Part shown: positions 31,451 through 47,300 of the stretch, one piece after another
Position numbering within the stretch: position 1 is the stretch's first letter
Layout of the letters: every line of letters begins with the position of its first letter
NCBI GenBank assembly: GCA_025993795.1
Contig: JAMQHL010000006.1
Location: 62,001 to 126,000 of the forward strand
Direction of reading: 5' to 3'
Length of the DNA: 64,000 nucleotides
DNA from: Planctomycetota bacterium
GTDB taxonomy: Bacteria; Planctomycetota; UBA8742; UBA2392
Notes under the pieces: generated by a model
What the model was told of the DNA's origin: nothing
The model's input: the letters and a program-made list of their open reading frames with translations, nothing else
Databases searched by the model: none
Translations under genes and position numbers: made by a program

Positions 31451-32797
31451 TCAGCCCGCGCGCATTTCTTCAAGACTGATGAACTTCACGCGCGGCCGGT
31501 TGCCCGCTTTGCCGCGTTCAATTTCGCGCGCGTTGATCTGCTGCCACTCGTCGAACGACAGGTACGCGCACCCCGCGTCCTTTAGCAGCCCGGCAATGTC
31601 GCGCACGGCGGCGACACGGCGGACATTCTTCACGTCATCCAGCATTAACGCCACGGTTTCTTCGGCGTCTTTCTTGTTGGTCCCGATCACGCCCGTCGGG
31701 CCGCGCTTGGCCCAGCCCACAACGTATGCACCGGGCAGCACGTTGCCTTCGGCGTTCATCACGCGCCCATGATCGTTGGGGATGATGCCCTTGCGTTTGT
31801 CGTACGGCACACCCGGAAGCGCGACCCCGTAATAGCCCACACTGCGCAGCACCATGCCGCAGGGCAGCTCTTCGAACTCGCCGATGCCTTCGCAGTTCAT
31901 GTAACCGTCGGGTGTGCTTACCAGGCGATTGCGTTCTATCTTCACACTGTTTACCCAGCCGTCTTTGCCCGTGATCTCGACCGGCGAAACCAGAAAGCGA
32001 AAATGCACCTTGCGTGGTTTGTCGCCCATGCCGCGGGCTGCGTACTCGCGCAGGAACTCGACGTTCTGGCGGGTGAGGCGGTCGGCTTCAACGGTTTTGC
32101 GACTTTCGGGGTCGAGCTCAATCTCTTCGGGCCTGACCACGGCATCAGCGATCTGCAGGTGCCCGAACTCCTTGATTTCGGGGTTTGTAAACTTGGCCTG
32201 TGCGGGCCCGCGCCGACCCAGCACGTAGATCTGCCTGACCTTGCTGTGTTTCAGGGCGTCAAGTGCATGGTCGGCAATGTCGGTCACCTTCAGTTCGTCG
32301 TACGATTTGGCCAGTATGCGCGCGACGTCCATGGCCACGTTGCCGACACCCACGACCGCCACGCCCTCAATGTCCAGGTTCGGCTTCAGGTCGCGGTAGT
32401 CCGGGTGGCCGTTGTACCAGGCCACGAACTCGGTGGCCGACATGCTGCCCATGAGGTCTTCGCCGGGGATATTCAGGTTGCGGTCTGACTGCGCGCCCGT
32501 TGCGAACACCAGCATGTCGTAGTGCGGGCGCAGATTGTCCATCGTGATATGCTTGCCGAACTCGACGCCGCCAAAGAAGCGCACGCGCGGGTCTTGCGCA
32601 GTCTTTTCGTACAGATTCGCGACACTCTTGATCTTCGGGTGATCTGGTGCCACCCCGTAGCGCACAAGGCCGTAGGGCGCGGGCAGGCGGTCGAACAGGT
32701 CAACCCTGACCTCGACGTCTTCCTGCCTGATCAATGCGGCGGCTGCGTAAAAGGCGCTCGGTCCGGCGCCGATGATTGCAATGCGTACGGCAGGCAT
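31451..32797 (-). CDS. FprA-type ferredoxin-NADP reductase
   Basis: A 448-residue flavoprotein of the adrenodoxin reductase/FprA family. The FAD site is IAIIGAGPSAFYAAAAL, followed by the family block YGLVRYGVAPDHPKIKSV. The NADP site is VAVVGVGNVAMDVARIL with VLGRRGPAQAKFT, and the C-terminal VVGWAKRGPTGVIGTNK completes the fold. It transfers electrons between NADPH and ferredoxin. AAGGA sits about 7 bases before the ATG 32797; the longer open frame upstream is not supported. It lies downstream of moaA, separated by 255 bases with no gene, so it may have its own promoter. Confidence 0.92.
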   Translation of the reverse strand: MPAVRIAIIGAGPSAFYAAAALIRQEDVEVRVDLFDRLPAPYGLVRYGVAPDHPKIKSVANLYEKTAQDPRVRFFGGVEFGKHITMDNLRPHYDMLVFATGAQSDRNLNIPGEDLMGSMSATEFVAWYNGHPDYRDLKPNLDIEGVAVVGVGNVAMDVARILAKSYDELKVTDIADHALDALKHSKVRQIYVLGRRGPAQAKFTNPEIKEFGHLQIADAVVRPEEIELDPESRKTVEADRLTRQNVEFLREYAARGMGDKPRKVHFRFLVSPVEITGKDGWVNSVKIERNRLVSTPDGYMNCEGIGEFEELPCGMVLRSVGYYGVALPGVPYDKRKGIIPNDHGRVMNAEGNVLPGAYVVGWAKRGPTGVIGTNKKDAEETVALMLDDVKNVRRVAAVRDIAGLLKDAGCAYLSFDEWQQINAREIERGKAGNRPRVKFISLEEMRAG

Positions 32798-33052
32798 GGT
32801 GTTCCTTTCGTGCGGCGCATTGTTCCAAGCGGCGCAGGATAGGCAACTGGAATGGGATGTGGTTTGGCGAGTGCTGCCGTGGTCCCGGCTGAAGGCCCCG
32901 GGAAGGACGAGGCGCAATATGGCCCCAGAGGCACCATGTTCCGCGAAAAGGGGCTGGTGGTCCTGCAATTCCTGCAATGGGCGACGAAGTAACGACTCAA
33001 GCTTCGACCGGCGGGCTTGAGCTCAACAGCCAGACATCGCGTTGACAGAGTT

Positions 33053-34958: not shown

Positions 34959-36635
34959 TCAACAGGGGATCTCAGCGTTCTTGCGGGCGTAGAACCACCA
35001 GTTAACCGCCAGGCAGCTCGCGTAGTACCCGGCGAATCCGTAGAGCGCGTACTCCGGCGTGCCGGCCTGGATTTGAGTGCCGATGACCTTGGGGATGAGG
35101 TAAGCGCCGTATGCGGCGATGGCCGACGTGAAACCCAGCACCGGCCCGGCGAGCTCTTTGGTGAAGATGATCGGGATCATGCGAAAGGTGGAGCCGTTGC
35201 CAATGCCCGTCGTCGCGAACAGCAGGATGAACGTGAGGAGAAAGGGGACGAAGTAGGTCTCGGGCGTGGAAGTGTTGCGGGCCTGATAAGTGAAGTAGCC
35301 CGCAGCAATCGTGGCAGCCACCATGATCCAGGTGTCCCACTGGGTCACTCTTGCGCCGCCCCACTTGTCCGCCAGCCATCCGCCAATCGGCCGAAGTAGC
35401 GCGCCGACACCAGCCCCGAGGAAGATGAAATTGGCTGTTATCGGCGCGTTGGGGTTGGCAATCGCCTGCGCCAGCGGGTTGCCGGCCGCATCCACGTAGA
35501 CCTTGCCGAACACCTGGTCGATCAACACCGGGAATGCGCTGGCATACCCGATGAACGAACCGAACGTCATGACGTACAGCCACGTCATCACCCAGTTGTG
35601 CTTCTTCTTGAAGATCACGAACTGGCCCTTCAAGTTGTCGCGGGTGGCCTTGGGCGTCAGATAGCGCATCAGAAGCAGCGTCGGCACGACTGCCATCGGC
35701 ACCATGAAGAACGTCCAGATCAGCTCGTTGATGGGCCCGTTGGACGTGAAGGTGGGCAGTACGTCGCTGAACTTCTGAAGCATCAACAGCCCCACGCCCG
35801 CCGCGCCGCCCAGAAAACCAAGGGTGCTCAGCCACAGAAACTTGGCGACGGCAATCGGTGTTGACCCGGCAGCCTTCTGGTGCTGCGGCAAGTTATTCAT
35901 CACGAGGTACGCGACAATCGTCAGGAAAGCCAGAATCGGTACCCAAAACAGGCCGGAGTTCTGTACCCAGAGCTGTTTTTCAGCGGCGTTCTGGATGAAA
36001 ACCTGGGGGTCACCACCCAGACTGCCGAACAACGGGAACGTAATGATCCAGGGAATCACGAACTGCATCACGCTGACGCCCAGATTGCCGATCCCGGCGT
36101 TCAGGCCCAATGCGATACCCTGCATGCGCTTTGGAAAAAAGAAGCTGATGTTGGACATGGAAGACGCGAACGCGCCGCCACCCACGCCGGATAGCGCGGC
36201 GTAGATCACCAGCAGCCAGAACGGCGTATTGGGGTCCTGTAGCGCGAGCCCGGCGCCAAGCGCCGGTATCATCAGCAGGATGGTGGTCATGAACTTGGCG
36301 CACCGGCCGCCTGTGATCGCCACCATGAACGAGTTGGGTATGCGCATCGTCGCGCCGACCAAGCCTGCCACGGCTGGCAGTGTCAGCAGCAGGGCCGCGT
36401 AGCTATCGCCTTCGTATGGCTGGCCGTTGTTCCCGAACGTGAAGTTGAACAACTCCGGATTGCCGGCGTGAATACTGATCAGGTACTTCGCGATCATTCC
36501 CCAATAAATCCAGATCGCGAAGCCGCACAGCAGGTTGGGGATCGACACTACCAGGTTTCGAAAGGCAATCACTTTGCCGGTCGAGTTCCAGAACGCTTCG
36601 TCTTCGACTTCCCACGTTTCTGGCGTGCGTGCCAT
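34959..36635 (-). CDS. narK2: Nitrate/nitrite transporter, NarK2 type
   Basis: A 558-residue major facilitator of the nitrate/nitrite porter family with 12 predicted membrane segments. Both family signatures are present: GGGAFASSMSNISFFFPKR in the first half and TGIGNGSTFRMIPIIF in the second. Arg residues in TMs 2 and 8 that bind the anion are in TMRIPNSF and GALLRPIGGWLAD. NarK2-type proteins exchange nitrate for nitrite. The start has AGAGGG upstream. The narK1-type gene ends 42 bases before it; in Paracoccus the two are one fused protein in the same order. Confidence 0.93.
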   Translation of the reverse strand: MARTPETWEVEDEAFWNSTGKVIAFRNLVVSIPNLLCGFAIWIYWGMIAKYLISIHAGNPELFNFTFGNNGQPYEGDSYAALLLTLPAVAGLVGATMRIPNSFMVAITGGRCAKFMTTILLMIPALGAGLALQDPNTPFWLLVIYAALSGVGGGAFASSMSNISFFFPKRMQGIALGLNAGIGNLGVSVMQFVIPWIITFPLFGSLGGDPQVFIQNAAEKQLWVQNSGLFWVPILAFLTIVAYLVMNNLPQHQKAAGSTPIAVAKFLWLSTLGFLGGAAGVGLLMLQKFSDVLPTFTSNGPINELIWTFFMVPMAVVPTLLLMRYLTPKATRDNLKGQFVIFKKKHNWVMTWLYVMTFGSFIGYASAFPVLIDQVFGKVYVDAAGNPLAQAIANPNAPITANFIFLGAGVGALLRPIGGWLADKWGGARVTQWDTWIMVAATIAAGYFTYQARNTSTPETYFVPFLLTFILLFATTGIGNGSTFRMIPIIFTKELAGPVLGFTSAIAAYGAYLIPKVIGTQIQAGTPEYALYGFAGYYASCLAVNWWFYARKNAEIPC

Positions 36636-36677
36636 GCTGTGCCCTCTTTCACCTGCCTGCGTCGGCAGGAGCCGAAA

Positions 36678-38195
36678 TCATGCTGAGCCCAGGGCGGGCT
36701 CGTCCAGGTCTTCTATTTGCCGCGCCAGTTCGGGGGCGCGCTTCCGCATCATCTTCCGAACTGCGGCATGCATCCACATCAGGCAGACGGCGACCAGCAC
36801 CACAAAGAACATCCAGCAGGTCGTCCACAACCCGGTGGCCCTGAGCAGGTAGCCGAAGATGATAGGGCAGATAAAGCCGCCCAAGCCGCCGAGCACCCCG
36901 ACGATTCCCCCAACCACACCAACGTCTTTTGGGAAGTAGTCTGGGATATGCTTGTAGACGGCGGCTTTACCGATACCCATCGCGATGCCAACAACGAACG
37001 CGAGGAAGGTGAAGACCCATACATTGGCCTGGAAGTAGATCTGCGTGACGCCGCGAGCAACCAGCTCTTTCTTTACCACCTCGTCGCCGACACGGACGAC
37101 CGGCTCTTGCCAGGACGTGGACTTCGGCAGGACAAACGTAGCTTCCTCTTCGAAACCGACGATCTCATCCTCCGCGCGGTGCTTCAGGCTGTAGGTCGTG
37201 CCCGAGACCACGACTTCATCCGGCGTCACGCTTTCCACGGTGCCGCCGCTCGTGGCCATGATCCCCTCGCCGGGAGACTGGATGATCATGCGCGGCACGA
37301 CCAGGAGCAGACACGCAAGCAGCGAGATCCCGAGTACCCAGTACATGACGGTCCGCGCGCCCCACTTGTCGGACATCCATCCGCCGAGCGCGCGGATAAC
37401 CCCCGAGGGAAAACTGAAGATCGCGGCCATGAACCCGGCCATGGCAACGGACATCGTGTAGGCGTTCACATAGTAAGGAATCAACCATTGCGCCAGCGCC
37501 ACGAAGCCGCCGAACACGAAGAAGTAGTAAAGCCCGAACCGCCACACCCGGATGTGCTTGAGCGGCTCCAGGCGTGCGAGAATGCTCTTACGGTTTCCGA
37601 GGTCCACCTTCTTGGGGTGCGTCGTGAGCCAGAACACCACGGCCGTCACGACCAGCACTCCGGCGTAAATCTTGGGAAGTGTGCGCCAGCCCTCAAGCTG
37701 CGTACCGCCGTCAGTCAGCCAGCGCAGCACCCAAGGCGCACCCAGGCTTGTCAGCGCGGCCCCGGCGTTGCCGGCCCCGAAAACCCCCAGGGCCGTTCCC
37801 TGCCACTTCTTCTCAAACCACACGGAGGTATAGGCGATACCGGCGGCAAAGGACGCCCCCGTCAGACCGAACCCCAGTCCGGCCAGCAGGAATTCCATGT
37901 ATGAGTCGGCGTGGCTGACCAGGTACATGGGAATGGCGGCAAGCAGCATCAGCAGAAAGAACACGATCCGGCCGCCGTACTTGTCGCATAGTACGCCGAC
38001 GGGCAGGCGCATGACCGCCCCCGTTAGCACCGGGATGCCGATCAGCGTACCCATCTCCGCCTTGTCCCAGGCGAATACCTTCCGCTCGACCAGGAAAGTG
38101 ATCAGCACGCCGTTCATCATCCAACACGCAAAACAGATGGTGAACGCCAGCGTGTTCATGGACAGGATGGTAAGCGCTTTGCGTTTTTCCTTCAT
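36678..38195 (-). CDS. narK1: Nitrate transporter, NarK1 type with an inserted soluble domain
   Basis: A 505-residue major facilitator transporter related to NarK1/NasA, which import nitrate with protons. Arg residues in MRLPVGVLCDKYGG and the loop IRALGGWMSDKWGA fit the nitrate-porter fold. Residues about 305-385 form an insertion of roughly 80 residues not expected in a 12-helix transporter: beta-rich, hydrophilic (GGTVESVTPDEVVVSGTTYS and onwards) and placed between membrane helices of the second half. The start at ATG 38195 is preferred over a GTG 18 bases upstream. It follows narI by 41 bases in the nar operon. Confidence 0.9.
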   Translation of the reverse strand: MKEKRKALTILSMNTLAFTICFACWMMNGVLITFLVERKVFAWDKAEMGTLIGIPVLTGAVMRLPVGVLCDKYGGRIVFFLLMLLAAIPMYLVSHADSYMEFLLAGLGFGLTGASFAAGIAYTSVWFEKKWQGTALGVFGAGNAGAALTSLGAPWVLRWLTDGGTQLEGWRTLPKIYAGVLVVTAVVFWLTTHPKKVDLGNRKSILARLEPLKHIRVWRFGLYYFFVFGGFVALAQWLIPYYVNAYTMSVAMAGFMAAIFSFPSGVIRALGGWMSDKWGARTVMYWVLGISLLACLLLVVPRMIIQSPGEGIMATSGGTVESVTPDEVVVSGTTYSLKHRAEDEIVGFEEEATFVLPKSTSWQEPVVRVGDEVVKKELVARGVTQIYFQANVWVFTFLAFVVGIAMGIGKAAVYKHIPDYFPKDVGVVGGIVGVLGGLGGFICPIIFGYLLRATGLWTTCWMFFVVLVAVCLMWMHAAVRKMMRKRAPELARQIEDLDEPALGSA

Positions 38196-38236
38196 GCCAA
38201 GTCCGAAGGCCACCCAAGACCGTCAGGCCCCCAGTC

Positions 38237-38959
38237 TCAAGATTTGGTTGTGCGCCGGTCACGATTCCAGATTACCTGCTGGGGGCGTCGCCACATGTAG
38301 GACAACGGCAGTACCAGCATGTGCACCAGGCGGGTGAACGGGAACACGCCGAGGATCACGAACGCACCCACCACATGGAGCTTGATCGCAAACGGCATTT
38401 CCTTGACGGCGGAGATATCCGGGCTGAACTTGAACAGCGACCACAGATACGGCGCCATGATGCCGGCAAACCAGCTCGATCCCCAGCGGTGGAAGAGCGC
38501 GATCCAGATTCCGTCGACAACCTGGATCAGCAGCAGGATCAGGATGACGACGTCCATCTTCGACGTGACAACCCGGATGCGCGAACTCGTGGCGCGGCGA
38601 TGGAGTGCATTGACCAGGCCCACGAGGGCCAGAATCGCAAATATCAGCGCACTCAACTCTATTACGTAGAGGCGCGCCGGTACGCTATTCCACCACAGTA
38701 TCTCTCGCGGGATCAGGAAACCGATCAGGTGCCCGAAAAACAACGCGATGATGCCGAAGTGCCAGGGCGCCGACGCATAGAACAGTTTCTTGTTCTCAAG
38801 GAACTGGGATGAAAGGGACGAGTAGCCGAACTTGGATGACACATATCGGCGGATCGTGGCGTACAGGAACAGCACGATCGCCGCGTACGGCAATCCCACG
38901 AACAGCACGGAATCCAGGTTCGCGAAAAGTGATTCGGATTGGGCCAGTAAGCTAGGCAT
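38237..38959 (-). CDS. narI: Respiratory nitrate reductase gamma subunit NarI
   Basis: A 240-residue integral membrane cytochrome b that oxidises quinol and passes electrons to NarH. Five membrane segments are visible, with haem-ligand His candidates in ASAPWHFGIIALFFGHLIGF and in KLHVVGAFVILGVFPFTRLVHML. The start overlaps the end of narJ by 8 bases. Length matches the family. The N-terminus ends outside, as in other NarI proteins. Confidence 0.95.
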   Translation of the reverse strand: MPSLLAQSESLFANLDSVLFVGLPYAAIVLFLYATIRRYVSSKFGYSSLSSQFLENKKLFYASAPWHFGIIALFFGHLIGFLIPREILWWNSVPARLYVIELSALIFAILALVGLVNALHRRATSSRIRVVTSKMDVVILILLLIQVVDGIWIALFHRWGSSWFAGIMAPYLWSLFKFSPDISAVKEMPFAIKLHVVGAFVILGVFPFTRLVHMLVLPLSYMWRRPQQVIWNRDRRTTKS

Positions 38960-39521
38960 GGCTGCTCACCTCTTCTTCGGGTGCCTGTTCAACAGGCGCG
39001 TAGACGATGCACTCGTAGTGGTCCTGTAGAAACTGATGAAGCGCGATGATGACCCGGCCAAAGCCGGCCCCTGTCTTGTCAAACCCGCCGGACATGTGCC
39101 TGACGGCCGGGAAGATGGCTTCCTGGATCAGCGAAAGCCCGGTTTCTTCATCCAGAGCCGCTGCCAGGTTAAGCATGGTCGGCAGGTGGTCGGCCAATTC
39201 CGTGCCCGTCTCGATGCCGAGTTCATCAGCGGCCTGCTTGGCACGGGCAAGAAACTGCCCGCGCTGGTAGGCCAGCCCGAAGAGGTGGTAACCCACCTCC
39301 AGCGCTACGGACGGGTTGATCTCGAAAGTCTGTGTGTACTTTTCCTGCAGTTCCTTTTGCGTGTGGCCTTGCAGGAACTCCGAGAACGCCCGCAGCCCGA
39401 TCGCGACCTCAGGGTGGTCCGCCAACTCCTCGACAGCCCCAAGCGCGGCCTCCCCTTGTCCGATGTGCGGGTAGCGCAACAACGGTGCGAATAGCGGAAG
39501 TTTGGCTCGTTCTGCGCTCAC
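38952..39521 (-). CDS. narJ: Nitrate reductase maturation chaperone NarJ
   Basis: A 189-residue all-helical protein of the NarJ/TorD-like family (LLRYPH, YTQTFEINPSVALEVGYHLF), which holds NarGH while the Mo cofactor is inserted; it is not part of the final enzyme. The start is the GTG at 39521, one base after the narH stop, with GAGGA 9 bases upstream. An upstream start would overlap narH. It overlaps narI by 8 bases. Confidence 0.92.
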   Translation of the reverse strand: MSAERAKLPLFAPLLRYPHIGQGEAALGAVEELADHPEVAIGLRAFSEFLQGHTQKELQEKYTQTFEINPSVALEVGYHLFGLAYQRGQFLARAKQAADELGIETGTELADHLPTMLNLAAALDEETGLSLIQEAIFPAVRHMSGGFDKTGAGFGRVIIALHQFLQDHYECIVYAPVEQAPEEEVSSHA

Positions 39522-39522
39522 G

Positions 39523-41019
39523 CTACAGTCCTCGTTTCGGAGCTTCGGTGAATCCGAAGCCGACTGACTTCTTGAAGTCCGCCGGGTCCTTGTATGCCTC
39601 AACAGCCATTTCCCGATGCAGCGGCGGAATCACAAACCGCTGAGAGAACGTCGGCAGAGACGTCATCCGGTAGATGGCTTCCGCCTCTTCCTCTGTGGTG
39701 TCTGCGGCGTGCAGCGTCTCGAGCGCGGTTGCCATCTCGATGTCGCCAACGGTTTGCGCGCGCTTGAACACACGCACGGCCATCAGCTTCTTCAACGTGT
39801 ACTTCATCAGGTCGACCTTGCCGACGGAGAAGATGTTGGCCATGTATTCCATGGGAATGCGCATCTCGTCGAACTTGTGGAACACGTCCTCGGGCTTGGT
39901 CTTGTTGCTGTAGATGTTGTTGTCGGTCGAGCCGAGTACGGGCAGCAACGGCGGCACGTAGAACAGCATGGGCATCGTGCGGTACTCGAGGTGCGGTGGC
40001 AGGGCGATCTTCCAGACCTTCACGAACTTGTAGACCGGCGAGCGCTGCGCGTACTCGATGAACTCGTCACTCATGCCGTTCTTCTTTGCCCCCGCGATTA
40101 CTTCGGGGTCGAACGGGTCGAGGATCAGGTCACGCTGGCCTTCAACGATCTTGTCGTCAGGCAGCGCAGCTACCTCTTTGATCCGGTCCGCATCATAGAA
40201 CAGCAGCCCCAGATAACGGATGCGCCCGACGCACGAGTGGAAGCAGGCGGGTGCCTGGCCGGTTTCGAGACGCGGGTAGCACAGCAGGCACTTCTCGGAC
40301 TTGCCGGTAGACCAGTTGAAGTACGTCTTCTTGTACGGACAGGCCGCCACGCAAGAGCGCCAGGCGCGGCACACCTTCTGGTTGATCAGAACAATCCCGT
40401 CCTCGCCGCGCTTGTACAACGCGCCGGAGGGGCAACTCGCCACGCATGCCGGGTTGAGGCAGTGGTTGCAGATACGCGGGAAGTAGAAGAACACAAGCCT
40501 TTCGAGCGCGTTGAGCTGCTGGCGCGTTTCTTCGGGCAGCCCTTTCAGGTTCACGTCGTTGCTGGCGTAGATCGGCGAGCCACCCAGGTCGTCATCCCAG
40601 TTCGGACCGGCCTTGATCTCCATTGGCTCGCCGGTGACCATTGAGACGGCTCGCGCAATCGGCTGGTCGTCGCCGGCGGGGGCGTTGAACAGGTTGTCAT
40701 ACCGATACGTCCATGGCTCGTAGTAGTCGTCCATGGTCGGCATGTGCGGGTGGTGGAAAATGTTCGGCAAATACTTCGCCTTGCTGGTGGACTTCAGCTT
40801 GAGCGAACTACCTTTGACTTCCCAGCCGCCCTTGTACTTGTCCTGGTTCTCCCATTGCGTGGGGTAGCCCGTGCCGGGCTTGGTCTCCACGTTGTTGAAC
40901 CACATGTACTCAGTGCCGCGCCGATCGGTCCAGATGTTCTTGCAGCTGATGCTGCAAGTGTGGCAACCGATGCACTTGTCGAGGTGAAACACCATCGAAA
41001 CTTGGGCTCGAACATCCAT
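39523..41019 (-). CDS. narH: Respiratory nitrate reductase beta subunit NarH
   Basis: A 498-residue iron-sulfur subunit that carries electrons from NarI to NarG on the inner face of the membrane. Four ferredoxin-type Cys groups are seen: CIGCHTCSISCKNIW, CNHCLNPACVASCPSG, CRAWRSCVAACPYKK and CLLCYPRLETGQAPACFHSC. The Trp in CRAWRSC replaces a Cys, as in all NarH, giving one 3Fe-4S cluster. CAGGAAA lies 8 bases before the ATG. The narG stop is 50 bases upstream. Confidence 0.97.
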   Translation of the reverse strand: MDVRAQVSMVFHLDKCIGCHTCSISCKNIWTDRRGTEYMWFNNVETKPGTGYPTQWENQDKYKGGWEVKGSSLKLKSTSKAKYLPNIFHHPHMPTMDDYYEPWTYRYDNLFNAPAGDDQPIARAVSMVTGEPMEIKAGPNWDDDLGGSPIYASNDVNLKGLPEETRQQLNALERLVFFYFPRICNHCLNPACVASCPSGALYKRGEDGIVLINQKVCRAWRSCVAACPYKKTYFNWSTGKSEKCLLCYPRLETGQAPACFHSCVGRIRYLGLLFYDADRIKEVAALPDDKIVEGQRDLILDPFDPEVIAGAKKNGMSDEFIEYAQRSPVYKFVKVWKIALPPHLEYRTMPMLFYVPPLLPVLGSTDNNIYSNKTKPEDVFHKFDEMRIPMEYMANIFSVGKVDLMKYTLKKLMAVRVFKRAQTVGDIEMATALETLHAADTTEEEAEAIYRMTSLPTFSQRFVIPPLHREMAVEAYKDPADFKKSVGFGFTEAPKRGL

Positions 41020-41069: not shown

Positions 41070-44000
41070 CTAGTACTCCAGGGTTGGCAGCTTCCTCACC
41101 ACCACGTGGGTGTCGCGGTTGCAACCCGTCGGCCCCCAGTAGTTGAAGTGGAAAGTGAACTGCCCGTATCCGCCGCAGCACAGGTTCGGCTTTAGCCTTG
41201 TCCGTGTGAGGCTGTTGTGTCCACCTGCCCGGCGGTTTCCGCGCAGCGGGCTCTTGGGAACGTTCAGCGTACGCTCCGGCGAGTGGTAGACGATGCAGAC
41301 GCCAGGCGGAATGCGCGCCGACACCGCAGCCCGCGTAACCATGACGCCGTGGTCGTTGTGAATCTCGACCCAGTCGTTGTCCACAATTCCAAGCTTCTCG
41401 GCATCCTTGTGGTTCATCCAGAACGGCTCACATCCGCGTGACAGCGTCATCATGCGTTCGTTGTCGCCGTACGTGCTGTGGATGTGCCATTTTCCGTGCG
41501 GCGTCAGGTAGTTGAGCCACAGGAACTTGTGGTCCTTGTCGGTGTTGACCAGATCGCCGTAGTCTGCCGGTGCGCACTTCGGCTTGTAGGTCGGCAGATG
41601 CTCGCCGTACTGAAGATACATGTGGTGATCGAGGTAGTAGTGCTGGCGGCCCGTCAGAGTGCGCCAGGGCACGTTGTTCTCGACGTTGTACGTGAATGGC
41701 GAATAGGCGCGACCATCGCTGGGCAGCCCTGACCACATCGCCGAGTTGTGCTGGCGACGGGGCTGCTGCTGAATGTCCATGTATGACATGCTCACGCCGC
41801 GATTGCGCTCAGCGAGGTGCTTCAACGGTATCCCCGTTTTCTCTTCCATTTCGAGGTAACCGCGATAGGCCATTTCTCCGTTGGTGACGCTGGCGAAACC
41901 CAGCACGACGTTGGCGGCTTCTTCCGCGTCCTCGATGCTCGGGTACTTCTCGCCGTCAACCTTCACAACCCGCTTCTTCGGATGTTTCAGGAATTTCTCG
42001 TAAACGTCCGCGCAGTCATAGTGTGTTCCGTGGGCGCCCAGTCCCTTGTCACGCACGAGTGGCCCCAGCGCGATGTACTTCTCGTACAGCTTGCTGTAGT
42101 CGCGCTCGATGATGCTCATCTTGGGCATCGTCTTGCCAGGCACGGCCTCGTCCTTGCCGTTCAGCCAATCCGGGATGTCCACCTGCGCAACTTCGTCCGC
42201 TGAGTCATGTACCAGCGGCGTGGACATCAAGTCTCGGACCGGCTTGGGGAACACCGACTTGGACAGCGCGCCGGTCTTCTTGGAGATCGCCTTGAAGATG
42301 TCCCAGTCGCTCTTGCTTTCCCAGCACGGCGGAACTGCGGCCGACAGCGGGTTCACAAACGCGTGCATGTCTGTTGTGTTGAGGTCGGCCTTTTCATACC
42401 AGGTCGCGGTCGGAAGGATAATGTCGGAATACAGCGCGGAAGTGTCAACGCGGAAGTTGATATCGACCACCAGGTCCATCTTGCCCTGGGGGGCGTTTTC
42501 GTACCACTTCACTTCCTTGACCGAGTCCTTCGCAACCGCCTCACTGGCGATCTCGTTGTGGTGCGTGCCGAGATAGTGCTTCAAGAAGTACTCATGTCCC
42601 TTTGAGCTTGCCATCAGGGCGTTGCCGCGCCAGATGTACCATACCCGCGGCCAGTTCTCCGGCGCGTCCGGATCCTCGACCGAGTAGTGCAGCTTCTTGT
42701 CCTTCAGCTGCTTCACCACGTACTGGATAATCTCTTCCTTCGACTTTGCGCCGCCTGCCTCTGCCTCTGCCGCAAGTTCCAGCGAGTTCCGGTTGTACTG
42801 CGGAAAGAACGGTTGCCAGCCATTGCGGACGGACTTCACGATCACATCCATCGTGTGCCCTTTGGCCAGGCTGCCTTCCGGCTGTTCCTTGGGCACGGTG
42901 TTGTAGTCGGTGAAGTACTTCTCATAGCGCCACTGGTCTGTGTTGACGTAGTGCCAGATCGGCGCCTGCTGCAGGCGGGCACCGGGGTTCCAGTCTCTGG
43001 CAAACGCAATCGCGCTCCAGGGTTCGCCCGGCGCCAGCTTCTCCTGCCCAACATAGTGGGCAAGTCCGCCGCCGTTCTTGCCGATGCACGTGCACAGCAT
43101 CATGCTCACGATTGCAGAGCGATAGATCAGGTTATTGTGGTACCAGTGGTTGATGCCGGCACCGATGATCACCGTGCACTTACCGCCAGTCTTCTCGGCC
43201 GTGGTTGCCCACTCGCGCGCGAACTTGATGACGTTCTGGCGCGAGATGCCGGTGAAGATTTCCTGCCACGCGGGAGTGAACTGTGCGTCCTTGTCGTCGT
43301 AGTTCGCGGCGTAGCCCTTCTCCAGCCCCGGTCGCGCGACTCCGAACTGGGCGAACAGCAGGTCAAACACCGTGGTCACGGCGACGCGTCCCTCGCTGGT
43401 CTCCACATACTTGACCGGTACCTGCCGCGAGACGGTCGTGCCGTTGGGAAAGTCGTCCAACTGGACTTCGACCAGCTCATCCTTGATCTCCAGCATGCTG
43501 AGCGCCGGGTCGATGTCAGCACCGTCTACCCCGTCCTTCAGCAGCAGGTTCCACTGGCCCTTCTTCTTCTGCCAGCGCTGTCCGATGAAACCCATCGGCA
43601 TTCGCGGGCGGCCGGTGGTCTTGTCCCACATCAGGAACTTCCAGTCCCCGTGTTCTTCGTTCTTGTATGGATCGAGGCGGTTGGCGCGCAGGTGCCGGCC
43701 GGGACGCAGGACGTCGCCCTGCTTCTCCAGCTTTACGAGCAGCGGATTGTCAGTGAAACGCTTCTGGTAGTCGAGGAAGTCGTCCACCTGCTTGTCGACG
43801 TACCACTCCTTCAGAATTACGTGGTTCACCGCCTGCCAGAACGCGCCGTCCTGCCCTTGGTGGACAGGGATCCACTCGTCCGCCAGCTTCGAGACCTGCG
43901 CGAAGTCGGGCGTGAAAACAACCAGCTTCGTGCCGTTGTGCTTGGCCTCGGTGACGAAGTGCGCGTCGGGTGTGCGCGTCATGTTGAGGTTCGAACCCAT

Positions 44001-44708
44001 GACCGCGAGCATCTTGGCGTTGTACCAGTCGGCGGACTCGTTCACGTCCGTCTGCTCTCCCCAGATCTCGGGGCTGGCCGGCGGAAGGTCACAGTACCAG
44101 TCGTAGAAACTCAGGTTGACGCCGCCAAACAGCTGGAGAAAGCGCGCGCCGGCGGCATAGCTGAGCATGGACATCGCGGGGATCGGGCTGAAACCAACGA
44201 CACGGTCCGGGCCCCATTTCTTGGCTGTGTACAGATTCGCCCCGGCCATGATCTCGAGAACCGTCTCCCAATTGGTGCGCCGGAAACCTCCCTTTCCACG
44301 GGCCTTCTGGTAGGCCGCGCGAGCCTTGTCGTCCTTCTGGATGGATTCCCAGGCTTTGACGGGGTCACTGTGTGTGGCGATTGCAGCTTCCCACGTATCG
44401 AGCAGCGAACCCCTGATGTACGGGTACTTCACGCGCATGGGGCTGTAGAGGTACCAGCTGTAAGAAATGCCGCGCTGGCAGCCGCGTGGTTCGTAGGGTG
44501 GGATCTCACCCTCGAGCTCAATGTGGTCTGTTGCCTGCATCTCCCACGTTACGACACCCTGCTTCACGTAGATCATCCATGCACAGCTGCCCGTGCAGTT
44601 GACGCCGTGAGTTGAGCGCACAATCCGGTCATGGGCCCAGCGGTTGCGGTAGAACTCTTCCCAGTCCCGGGTCTTCGGGTTGACGATGTCTTGGATCCAG
44701 CTTGTCAT
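41070..44708 (-). CDS. narG: Respiratory nitrate reductase alpha subunit NarG
   Basis: A 1212-residue molybdoenzyme that reduces nitrate to nitrite, close to the usual NarG length of about 1240. The N-terminal FS0 cluster ligands are His34, Cys38, Cys42 and Cys77 ([14 protein letters not shown]). The Mo-ligand Asp lies in the [10 protein letters not shown] segment (203 or 207), and the block [13 protein letters not shown] follows. No twin-arginine signal is present, which fits the cytoplasm-facing Nar type rather than an outward-facing or periplasmic form. It overlaps the upstream cytochrome gene by 4 bases (ATGA). The frame is intact. Confidence 0.98.
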
Positions 44709-45565
44709 GACACTCCTCCCACGAGGCTTTTTCGGACGTTGCGGAAGCGCTTGCTCCAGATTCGGTCGAAGGCAAAGATCAGCAGAGCCGTACCCAGAAG
44801 CGACAGGATCACAAACAGAATCATCATCCCGAGGCTGCCTTCTTCATCTGCTGTGTCGGCGGACACGCTCCCGAGGAACGCGGTAAGTGCGACCACTTCG
44901 TTTTCAGCAAGTGGCTTATCGGCGAAGGCATTCTTCATTACCAAGAACTGCGGATTGGACAACGCCGCATACACGCCGGCGTCGCCACCGTTGCGTTCAT
45001 GCGCCTTGTTCAAGCTCGTGTACTGCCCGCCGACGCTGGAGGCGAGCGACCCGCCGCCGAAGCCTCCGACACCATTGATCGTGTGGCAGGAAACGCAAGG
45101 CGGCCCGCCGTTGACCAGCATTTCTTCACCGGTGAAGTACTTCCGCCCAAGCTCGATGGTTGCTTCGTCCTTTGGAATGGCGATGCTCGGCGCCCCGAAC
45201 TTCTCGCCGGACAGAATGAAGTCGATCAGTTGCTCGATCTCAGCATCCGTCAGCGTTTGCGCCACCATGGCATCGCCGTACTCCTTGCGAAGCGCCACGC
45301 TGTAGTCATCATTTTGCGACTTTGGATCGCGAATAAATGCGGCAAGCCGCTTCCGGTCAGGAACGCGGTCCTTAATCCCCATCAGGTCCGGCCCCACCCT
45401 GCGACCGAAGCCGATCGAGTGGCAAGCCCCGCAAGTCTTGGTCGTGAACAAGTCACGACCGGCAGCAGCACTCTGCGCGGAGCTCGTCCCCGGCAGCGAC
45501 GCAAGGATTGCCCCCGCGATCGAAAGCGTGCAGCACACTAGAAGAACGTATCTCAGCTGTTTCAC
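44705..45565 (-). CDS. Membrane-anchored diheme cytochrome c of the nar operon
   Basis: A 286-residue cytochrome with a signal peptide, two c-type haem sites (Cys45-Cys48-His49 and Cys157-Cys160-His161) and a C-terminal membrane helix (about 247-268) followed by a basic tail on the cytoplasmic side. Met residues after each site could supply the sixth ligand. It is the first gene of the operon and overlaps narG by 4 bases, as in NarC-type nar operons of Thermus and related systems. It may feed electrons to, or take them from, the nitrate reductase. The start is GTG 45565 with AGAGGAG upstream. Confidence 0.88.
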
Positions 45566-45640
45566 AACCGGTCTCCTCTGGGCGGCCGCCTGTACGGCAG
45601 GCGGGTTGAGCCTAATGCGGATGACAGAGTCCTGTTATCT

Positions 45641-45722
45641 GAATATGGGTTTACCACCCACTCACCCAGCCCGTAAAGCGGATTCCGGTGGCTGAATATC
45701 GGACTGCTTGAGCCCAATATTC
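45641..45722. promoter_or_regulatory. Three GAATATNGG half-sites in the nar divergent region
   Basis: GAATATGGG (45641-45649) and GAATATCGG (45694-45702) are direct copies whose starts are 53 bases apart, close to five helical turns. A third, CCAATATTC (45714-45722), is inverted and forms a dyad with the second. They lie 76-157 bases upstream of the cytochrome/nar start and 125-206 bases upstream of the Nfu-hemerythrin start. No canonical FNR box (TTGAT-N4-ATCAA) was found, so another regulator may use them. Confidence 0.45.
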
Positions 45723-45846
45723 GCCGGGCTCGAAACTACGCTGATCAGGGGCGGTCGATGCCGAAAAATAAATTGCGGACAAGCGGGTCTTGTATTCGGG
45801 TGCCAGGCAGTTCATGCTCTATCCAGTACCCGATGAGGGCTCAACC

Positions 45847-46623
45847 ATGGACACGCAACGCAGAGAAGACGTTGAGCGCATACTCGACCAGATGCGGCCC
45901 TGGATCCGCTCTGACGGCGGTGATGTCTCGCTCGTCGACATTTCGGCGCGTGGCGTCGTCACGGTCAGGCTTGAGGGGAACTGCGTCGGCTGCGGCGCAC
46001 AGCAGATGACTCTTGACGATGGCATCAAGTCCGTGATGGTCTCGCAGCTGGACTGGGTCACGTCCGTCGTTGCACTGGAAGGCGAAGCGCAGAAGGCAAC
46101 CGTTCGCGGCATCCGGTCGCTGCTTGAGCAGGACATGGCAAGCACAGAAGCACTGCTGGTGGAGTTGGACGACGCACTGCTTTCCATGCAGCCAGCCGAC
46201 CCGCTGCCTGAGCAGGTGGATCGATGGCTGGAGCACTTCGACACGCGGCTGAGCCTGCTCATGCATCGAGAAGAACAGTGCGTCTTCCCCGTGCTGCGCG
46301 ACTTCTTGAACACGGCGTCCGGCCCGGTCGGGATGATGGCGCGCGACCACGCGGACCTCAGGCAAAAGAACGAGGCATTGCGCGCCGCTGCCGATAGCTT
46401 TGAGTCATGGAGCGATGCAACCCGCACCAGGCTGCGCGATTCGGGTCGCGCGGTCACGCGTCAGTTGTCCGCGCATCTGATAAAAGAGCGCGCATCGGTT
46501 TTCGAGTTGCTGGATCGCGAGTTACCCGATGATCTGCGCAAAGAGGTGATACAGGACCTTCAGCGCCATGAAGCAGCTCGCCCGGTACTGGAACCAATCA
46601 CCAAAGAGGGAGCGAAACCATGA
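45847..46623 (+). CDS. Nfu scaffold fused to a hemerythrin-like domain
   Basis: A 258-residue fusion. Residues 1-80 form a NifU C-terminal (Nfu) domain with the cluster-carrying CVGCG motif (Cys46, Cys49) and the flanking SDGGDVSLVDI and QQMTLDDGIKSV. Residues about 95-225 form a hemerythrin-like four-helix domain: EEQCVFP in helix 2, His168 in RDHADLR, and His210-x3-Glu214 in helix 4. In helix 2 the expected His (four residues before EE) is Leu, with His140 two residues later, and no His is evident in helix 1, so the diiron ligand set is atypical. GAGGG lies 7 bases before the ATG. Divergent from nar and overlapping the next gene by 4 bases, it is a plausible Fe-S repair protein under NO stress. 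Confidence 0.85.
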   Translation: MDTQRREDVERILDQMRPWIRSDGGDVSLVDISARGVVTVRLEGNCVGCGAQQMTLDDGIKSVMVSQLDWVTSVVALEGEAQKATVRGIRSLLEQDMASTEALLVELDDALLSMQPADPLPEQVDRWLEHFDTRLSLLMHREEQCVFPVLRDFLNTASGPVGMMARDHADLRQKNEALRAAADSFESWSDATRTRLRDSGRAVTRQLSAHLIKERASVFELLDRELPDDLRKEVIQDLQRHEAARPVLEPITKEGAKP

Positions 46624-47300
46624 CTGTGAACCTTCCCGCTACGCTGTTTGCCCCCGCGCTGTCAAAAGCCGATGGCGATGAGCCCAGCTACCAGTTGATG
46701 AAAGCCACGAGCCCCGAGGGAGTCAGCGTTCCAATCGTCTTTACAAAACTCGCGTACCTGCAGCATTTCGCGGAAGCGACGGGACTGACCAAGCACGAGC
46801 CGCCGGTGGGCCATGTCGAGATACCGAGCGGCACGCTGTTGCAGCAACTCGCGGAATCCGGCGAGCCCGAAGTCTACGTCGATCCGCTGCAGGAATGTGA
46901 GACCAAGCTGTCCTACAACGGCAACGGCGTACTCTCCAAGCAGATTGCCGAAGAGAACGCCATCTTCGAAATCTGCCAGCCGAAGGTCCCGCTGGACGTC
47001 AAGTTTGTCGACCTTCTCAGACAAGTCGCAGCGAGCCTGCCGCATATCCAGCGCGTATGGCTGATGGAGTTGACCATCCGCGACGGCGCAGACGAAAGCA
47101 AGATACCCATCCCTCGCCCCCTGCTTGTGGTCGAGCAGGACATCGATGAGAAGCACGATGAATACCAGGACACATGGATGGAACTGGGCGACCAGTGGTG
47201 CGAGCACTTGCCACGCGGAACTGCCGTCGACATGTTGCCGCACAATGCTCCGCCCGTGCAGGATCACCTCGTGGATGAATGCGTCGTGTACTCCCGCTAG
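46620..47300 (+). CDS. SseB-like hypothetical protein
   Basis: A 226-residue soluble protein translationally coupled (ATGA overlap) to the Nfu-hemerythrin gene. The N-terminal half (GVSVPIVFTKLAYLQHFAEA) and the C-terminal half (IQRVWLMELTIRDG; LPRGTAVDMLPHN) resemble the two domains of SseB-family proteins, whose biochemical role is not well defined. The resemblance is by pattern only. GAGGGAG precedes the start. Its coupling to the fusion protein suggests they work together. Confidence 0.6.
   Translation: MTVNLPATLFAPALSKADGDEPSYQLMKATSPEGVSVPIVFTKLAYLQHFAEATGLTKHEPPVGHVEIPSGTLLQQLAESGEPEVYVDPLQECETKLSYNGNGVLSKQIAEENAIFEICQPKVPLDVKFVDLLRQVAASLPHIQRVWLMELTIRDGADESKIPIPRPLLVVEQDIDEKHDEYQDTWMELGDQWCEHLPRGTAVDMLPHNAPPVQDHLVDECVVYSR

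Follow-up and report, generated by a model that had tools for sequence, protein, structure and literature searches.

A gene encoding an Nfu-type iron-sulfur (Fe-S) cluster carrier joined to a hemerythrin-like domain stands back to back with a nitrate reductase (nar) cluster in the genome of an uncultured planctomycete and, within the order to which this genome belongs, is found in exactly the species that bear NarG; its product therefore probably serves nitrate reductase in particular, by assembling or mending the Fe-S clusters of this enzyme. The window, namely the 64,000-nucleotide stretch of DNA that was analysed, holds the gene, its partner and the nar cluster (Table 1). NarGH is rich in Fe-S clusters and general Nfu carriers are suspected of serving NarGHI, yet to our knowledge the carrier that inserts or renews these clusters is poorly assigned. 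A carrier that occurs exactly where NarG does would lend itself well to testing whether clusters are delivered to specific clients, and the linkage and co-occurrence together make such delivery to nitrate reductase testable. The fusion itself is made of known parts in a new variant, and a literature search of incomplete coverage found no description of an Nfu-hemerythrin protein.

Table 1. Features of the fusion locus in the window and, in the last row, ORFs at loci of the second fusion family
Feature	Position	Strand	Remarks
Two NarK-type transporters	34959..38213 (36678-38213; 34959-36635)	-	
narI	38237..38959	-	
narJ	38952..39602	-	50 bits, under the family cut-off of 59
narH	39523..41019	-	
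narG	41070..44708	-	TIGR01580, 1461 bits
Diheme cytochrome c, NarC-like	44705..45565	-	First gene of the divergent nar cluster
Palindromic site A GATGACAGAGTCCTGTTATC	45620..45639		Unique in the genome at <=2 mismatches of the searched pattern
Palindromic site B	45681..45700		Weak in this genome, strong in relatives
Palindromic site C GACAAGCGGGTCTTGTATTC	45778..45797		Spacing comparison with relatives
Nfu-hemerythrin-like fusion gene	45847..46623	+	Open ORF, ATG at 45847, 258 aa
NifU/Nfu domain (residues 9-75)	45871..46071	+	Pfam match; dN/dS 0.03
CVGC cluster-binding motif (C46, C49)	45982..45993	+	Both Cys invariant in 14/14 fusion homologues
Hemerythrin-like four-helix bundle (residues 89-225)	46111..46521	+	Pfam, AlphaFold2, Foldseek, alignments
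SseB-like partner gene	46620..47300	+	ATG overlaps the fusion stop (ATGA)
Sigma factor-serpin ORFs	L187:5792-7951; L188:10572-12602; L189:478-2655; L191:10609-12648	+; -; +; -	

The union of the two domains, which an initial annotation had proposed from the letters of the window, is confirmed by profile searches, as Pfam NifU matches residues 9-75 at 69.2 bits (cut-off 27), with the CVGC motif intact, and Pfam Hemerythrin matches residues 106-222 at 47.7 bits (cut-off 25.3), placing hemerythrin similarity after residue 95 as that annotation expected. Both families are matched by all 14 fusion homologues, NifU at E below 0.001. An AlphaFold2 model computed with nine relatives as input has an Nfu fold followed by a four-helix bundle (89-112, 122-152, 158-183 and 190-225) and an additional C-terminal helix (228-243); confidence is good over the bundle, low in the linker (79-86) and weaker in the Nfu part near the CxxC motif. 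Searched with Foldseek, this model retrieves Nfu structures (CnfU 2z51, 1xhj and others) and the hemerythrin-like protein NMB1532 (2p0n), the latter with a TM-score of 0.76 of the target and a probability of 1.0 at an E-value of only 0.007, while a profile search of solved structures returns CnfU/NFU1 for the Nfu half and YtfE for the second half. Between the window and the related locus L023, dN/dS is 0.03 for the Nfu half and 0.15 for the hemerythrin half, and between L026 and L027 it is 0.03 and 0.11, respectively. Purifying selection thus acts on both domains, and the hemerythrin-like one, which evolves faster than the Nfu domain, is maintained rather than freely decaying. A chance ORF is ruled out by these values, well below 1 in both domains, and by homologues down to about 30% identity.

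The protein shares with the Nfu/NifU C-terminal carriers (NfuA, NFU1, CnfU; PF01106) an Nfu domain with a CxxC motif, as seen in both sequence and fold matches, and differs from them in that a hemerythrin-like domain comes after Nfu and the gene is tied to nar; the known NfuA has instead an A-type-like N-terminal domain. Nfu proteins bind their cluster as a CxxC-bridged dimer. Since the same genome encodes another Nfu-domain protein (on contig C72), the fusion is best described as a specialised, nar-tied extra copy. A free-standing Nfu from another genome of the order (L069:1501-1737, G005:C81) is 50% identical to the Nfu half of the fusion and groups with it in the Nfu tree (97/79); its neighbours are ORFs resembling zinc alcohol dehydrogenase and DAHP synthase.

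The divergence from the nitrate reductase genes that had been noted at the outset also holds, with the refinement that a diheme cytochrome c gene lies in between, so that the immediate divergent neighbour of the fusion is this gene, followed by narG. The two NarK-type transporter genes and moaA also lie on this divergent side. A NarC-type cytochrome with a NarGHI cluster is a Thermus-like layout, and the locus resembles such clusters in its succession of cytochrome c, narGHJI and narK; it departs from them by adding the divergent Nfu-hemerythrin and SseB-like pair, which class-level relatives lack. Among the 17 genomes of the order, the fusion is present in nine (G000, G003, G005, G007, G010, G011, G012, G014 and G016) and absent from eight (G001, G002, G004, G006, G008, G009, G013 and G015). 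The distribution of true NarG is identical, and in the eight genomes without the fusion only distant molybdopterin-enzyme matches of at most 73 bits are found; for independent genomes, which these are not, so perfect an agreement would have a probability of 1 in 24,310 (17 choose 9). Presence varies even inside genera (one of three genomes in g1, two of six in g3), and the state has therefore changed more than once. The complete order of SseB-like gene, fusion, divergent cytochrome c and narG recurs at six further loci (L023, L024, L026, L027, L028 and L030); at L029 the cytochrome c gene is reached before the contig ends, and the contig of L025 ends too early to tell. Hence the expectation that the fusion would be fixed beside nar stands within the order, where it adjoins nar in all genomes that have nar and a contig long enough to show the neighbourhood, and fails beyond it, as a second planctomycete family (f50) carries such a fusion without nar. 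One of the relatives with the fusion is record JABARW010000029.1 (Planctomycetota bacterium Bin_91R); in the contig profile scan, plain Nfu proteins made up most matches. Two class-level genomes (G017, G018) have cytochrome c-narG without the fusion, which indicates that NarGHI does not need it in general and that this order has added the fusion to the cluster.

The partner gene is equally faithful, being found in the same nine of the 17 genomes and always 3' of the fusion. Its assignment to SseB is based on a weak profile match (SseB_C/SseB_N, 19.7 bits against a cut-off of 22.5), with six of the nine members matching SseB_C and two SseB_N at E below 0.01. The protein has a mean column identity of 65% across nine genomes and an invariant GDxWCE motif; its structure model is of low confidence (pLDDT 72) and gave no significant fold match. 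The sseB gene of E. coli comes directly after the isc operon and pepB, a position that hints at a link to Fe-S or sulfur metabolism.

The spacer between the cytochrome c gene and the fusion contains three 20-mer palindromes close to GATAACAAGATCTTGTTATC, placed 61 and 98 bp apart in the window. Relatives keep this spacing at 60-61 bp between sites A and B and at 97-99 bp (102 in L029) between B and C, and the DNA between the sites is poorly conserved. Scored with leave-one-out weight matrices, most sites are among the best few matches of their own locus, whereas site B of the window ranks 14; as some sites were picked by eye after the first motif search, the rigid spacing is the stronger evidence. 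A conserved element of three sites suggests shared control of the divergent genes, and a putative regulator binding it likely co-controls the fusion/SseB-like pair and cytochrome c-narGHJI. In a genome-wide search for a regulon, the strict pattern, which may be too strict, matched this locus only. FNR-type boxes were also considered for the spacer and rejected, as it has no convincing TTGAT-N4-ATCAA site.

In sequence, the second domain of the fusion comes nearest to RIC/YtfE, whether it is compared with named families or with solved structures. The iron ligands of YtfE are H84, H204, H129 and H160 with the bridging E133 and E208 (PMC9052748). At the corresponding positions the fusion has M97, H210, L138, H168, E142 and E214 (helices 2 and 3 assigned by direct alignment to YtfE, helices 1 and 4 by family alignment), and thus keeps four of the six ligands: E142, H168 in helix 3 and the helix-4 pair H210xxxE214. 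Two of the four di-iron His are absent, with M97 in place of H84 and L138 in place of H129, and this makes RIC-type di-iron chemistry doubtful. The initial annotation had already seen the ligands as atypical, with no His in helix 1 and a displaced His in helix 2; both remarks were accurate, and the displaced residue, H140, was rejected as a ligand since relatives have N, E, R, D or A in its place. Position 138 is Leu in all nine nar-linked members, and E142, H168, H210 and E214 are kept together in eight of them, a pattern with which the nar-linked fusion could hold a single metal by two His and two Glu. In the ninth, the order-level member L029, only E142 is kept and all His ligands are gone, so that, given also the faster evolution of the domain, its role is uncertain. 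A half-reduced hemerythrin site of this kind may serve as a test of such domains working without a di-iron centre.

Our preferred reading, which we hold to be somewhat more probable than its negation, is that of an Nfu-type Fe-S carrier dedicated to NarGH, with a hemerythrin-like half for docking, sensing or binding a single metal, an SseB-like partner and a shared regulator. The Nfu domain, as a CxxC-bridged dimer, would be loaded with a [4Fe-4S] cluster by the general assembly machinery and pass it to NarH and/or the FS0 site of NarG during narGHJI expression, or would alternatively replace clusters damaged in nitrate respiration. The hemerythrin-like domain would dock the client and/or sense conditions; any metal bound there would more likely be one iron, at E142, H168, H210 and E214, than a complete di-iron centre. 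In the same step the SseB-like protein would take part. A precedent is offered by P. aeruginosa, whose denitrification complex has been reported to contain NfuA (PMC5658584), and a looser one by Campylobacter, in which hemerythrins reportedly contribute to the protection of Fe-S enzymes (PMC4257069). Counted against a dedicated carrier are cytochrome c-narG without the fusion in the two class-level genomes, the f50 fusion without nar, and the loss of every ligand but E142 in L029. A more elaborate version, with client-specific delivery to respiratory nitrate reductase gated by O2, NO or iron through a single-metal two-His/two-Glu sensor or iron store remodelled from a di-iron site, together with the SseB-like partner and a dedicated three-site operator, is rather doubtful.

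The initial annotation had instead seen in the fusion an Nfu-based analogue of RIC. The two share a hemerythrin-like domain, cysteines in the N-terminal domain and a plausible role around nitrosative damage, and a RIC-like repair protein would be one with an iron-binding hemerythrin-like domain that gives up iron and reacts with nitrite or NO, and with an Nfu domain that rebuilds the damaged clusters of many proteins and not of NarGH in particular. Nitrite and NO arise indeed from nitrate respiration, the RIC families are the named families that the second domain matches, and YtfE, its best relative of solved structure by sequence, has been reported as an NO-generating nitrite reductase (PMC9052748). 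Against this stand the missing equivalents of H84 and H129, with Leu fixed at position 138 in all nar-linked members, the strict tracking of NarG by the fusion, and a genuine RIC already in the genome (contig C24; TIGR03652, 256 bits) with a Cys-Cys N-terminal domain evident in its sequence. The fusion reaches only 27 bits with TIGR03652 (cut-off 204.7) and, having NifU as its N-terminal domain, gives no Pfam match to ScdA_N with its Cys-Cys pair; it thus differs from RIC/YtfE/ScdA/DnrN in lacking ScdA_N and two of the four His ligands and in coexisting with a true RIC. As a stand-in for RIC the proposal was not sustained, and replacement of RIC was rejected because the genome has the genuine protein. 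A carrier dedicated to nitrate reductase fits better, and we regard general RIC-like repair as unlikely. The same holds for a metal-free adaptor, in which the hemerythrin-like fold would be a helical docking platform for NarGH, NarJ or the SseB-like protein and Nfu would do all the chemistry: ligand loss, complete for His in L029, speaks for it, and so does the absence of His from the residues that never vary in the second half across the nar clade (P121, L138, E142, L226, L230, E233 and D237), four of them being located at or within the additional C-terminal helix, but the retention of E142, H168, H210 and E214 together in eight of nine nar-linked members suggests ongoing selection on the site.

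That the pair is a mere passenger of a nar cassette which comes and goes as a unit, the two being functionally unconnected, agrees with its patchy presence within genera and with a genome (G011) whose linked narG is 77% and whose fusion is 86% identical to those of the window, but is very improbable given that divergent placement and the three-site spacer are kept while protein identity drops to about 30%, that both domains are under purifying selection, and that, of the genes downstream, more distant relatives retain the SseB-like one alone. The figures from G011 do imply that the histories of narG and of the fusion are not identical. This genome has two NarG copies (G011:C73 and G011:C14; L023, L051), 77% and 84% identical to that of the window; the fusion adjoins the 77% copy, and the contig of the 84% copy starts just upstream of narG.

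Among 392 sampled planctomycete genomes, full-length fusions were confined to this order and to five f50 genomes (loci L187-L191). Samples of Pseudomonadota and Chloroflexota, about 400 genomes each, yielded no such fusion at a threshold low enough to admit full-length relatives of this kind, a negative that is weak because these samples hold no positive control. The f50 fusion has the same domain order, a similar length and Pfam matches to both domains; it differs in its neighbours, in occurring in genomes without true NarG, and in keeping the equivalents of YtfE H84, H129, H160, E133 and E208 with an Asp at H204. On one or two origins of the fusion families the trees diverge, as the Nfu tree separates them, but with an AU p of 0.46, and the HHE tree joins them (support 74/25). 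An adrenodoxin-reductase-like flavoprotein is encoded in the window about 13 kb from the fusion (31451-32977, minus strand) and also 4-5 kb from f50 fusions (L187:2631-3989, L188:14386-15795 and L191:14332-15799); its proximity to both families may be chance. Finally, a combination of sigma factor and protease inhibitor that looks very unusual is encoded close to the f50 fusions, where single ORFs of 676-725 aa contain both an ECF-type sigma factor (Sigma70_r2, r4_2) and an entire serpin domain (PF00079, 346-397 bits).
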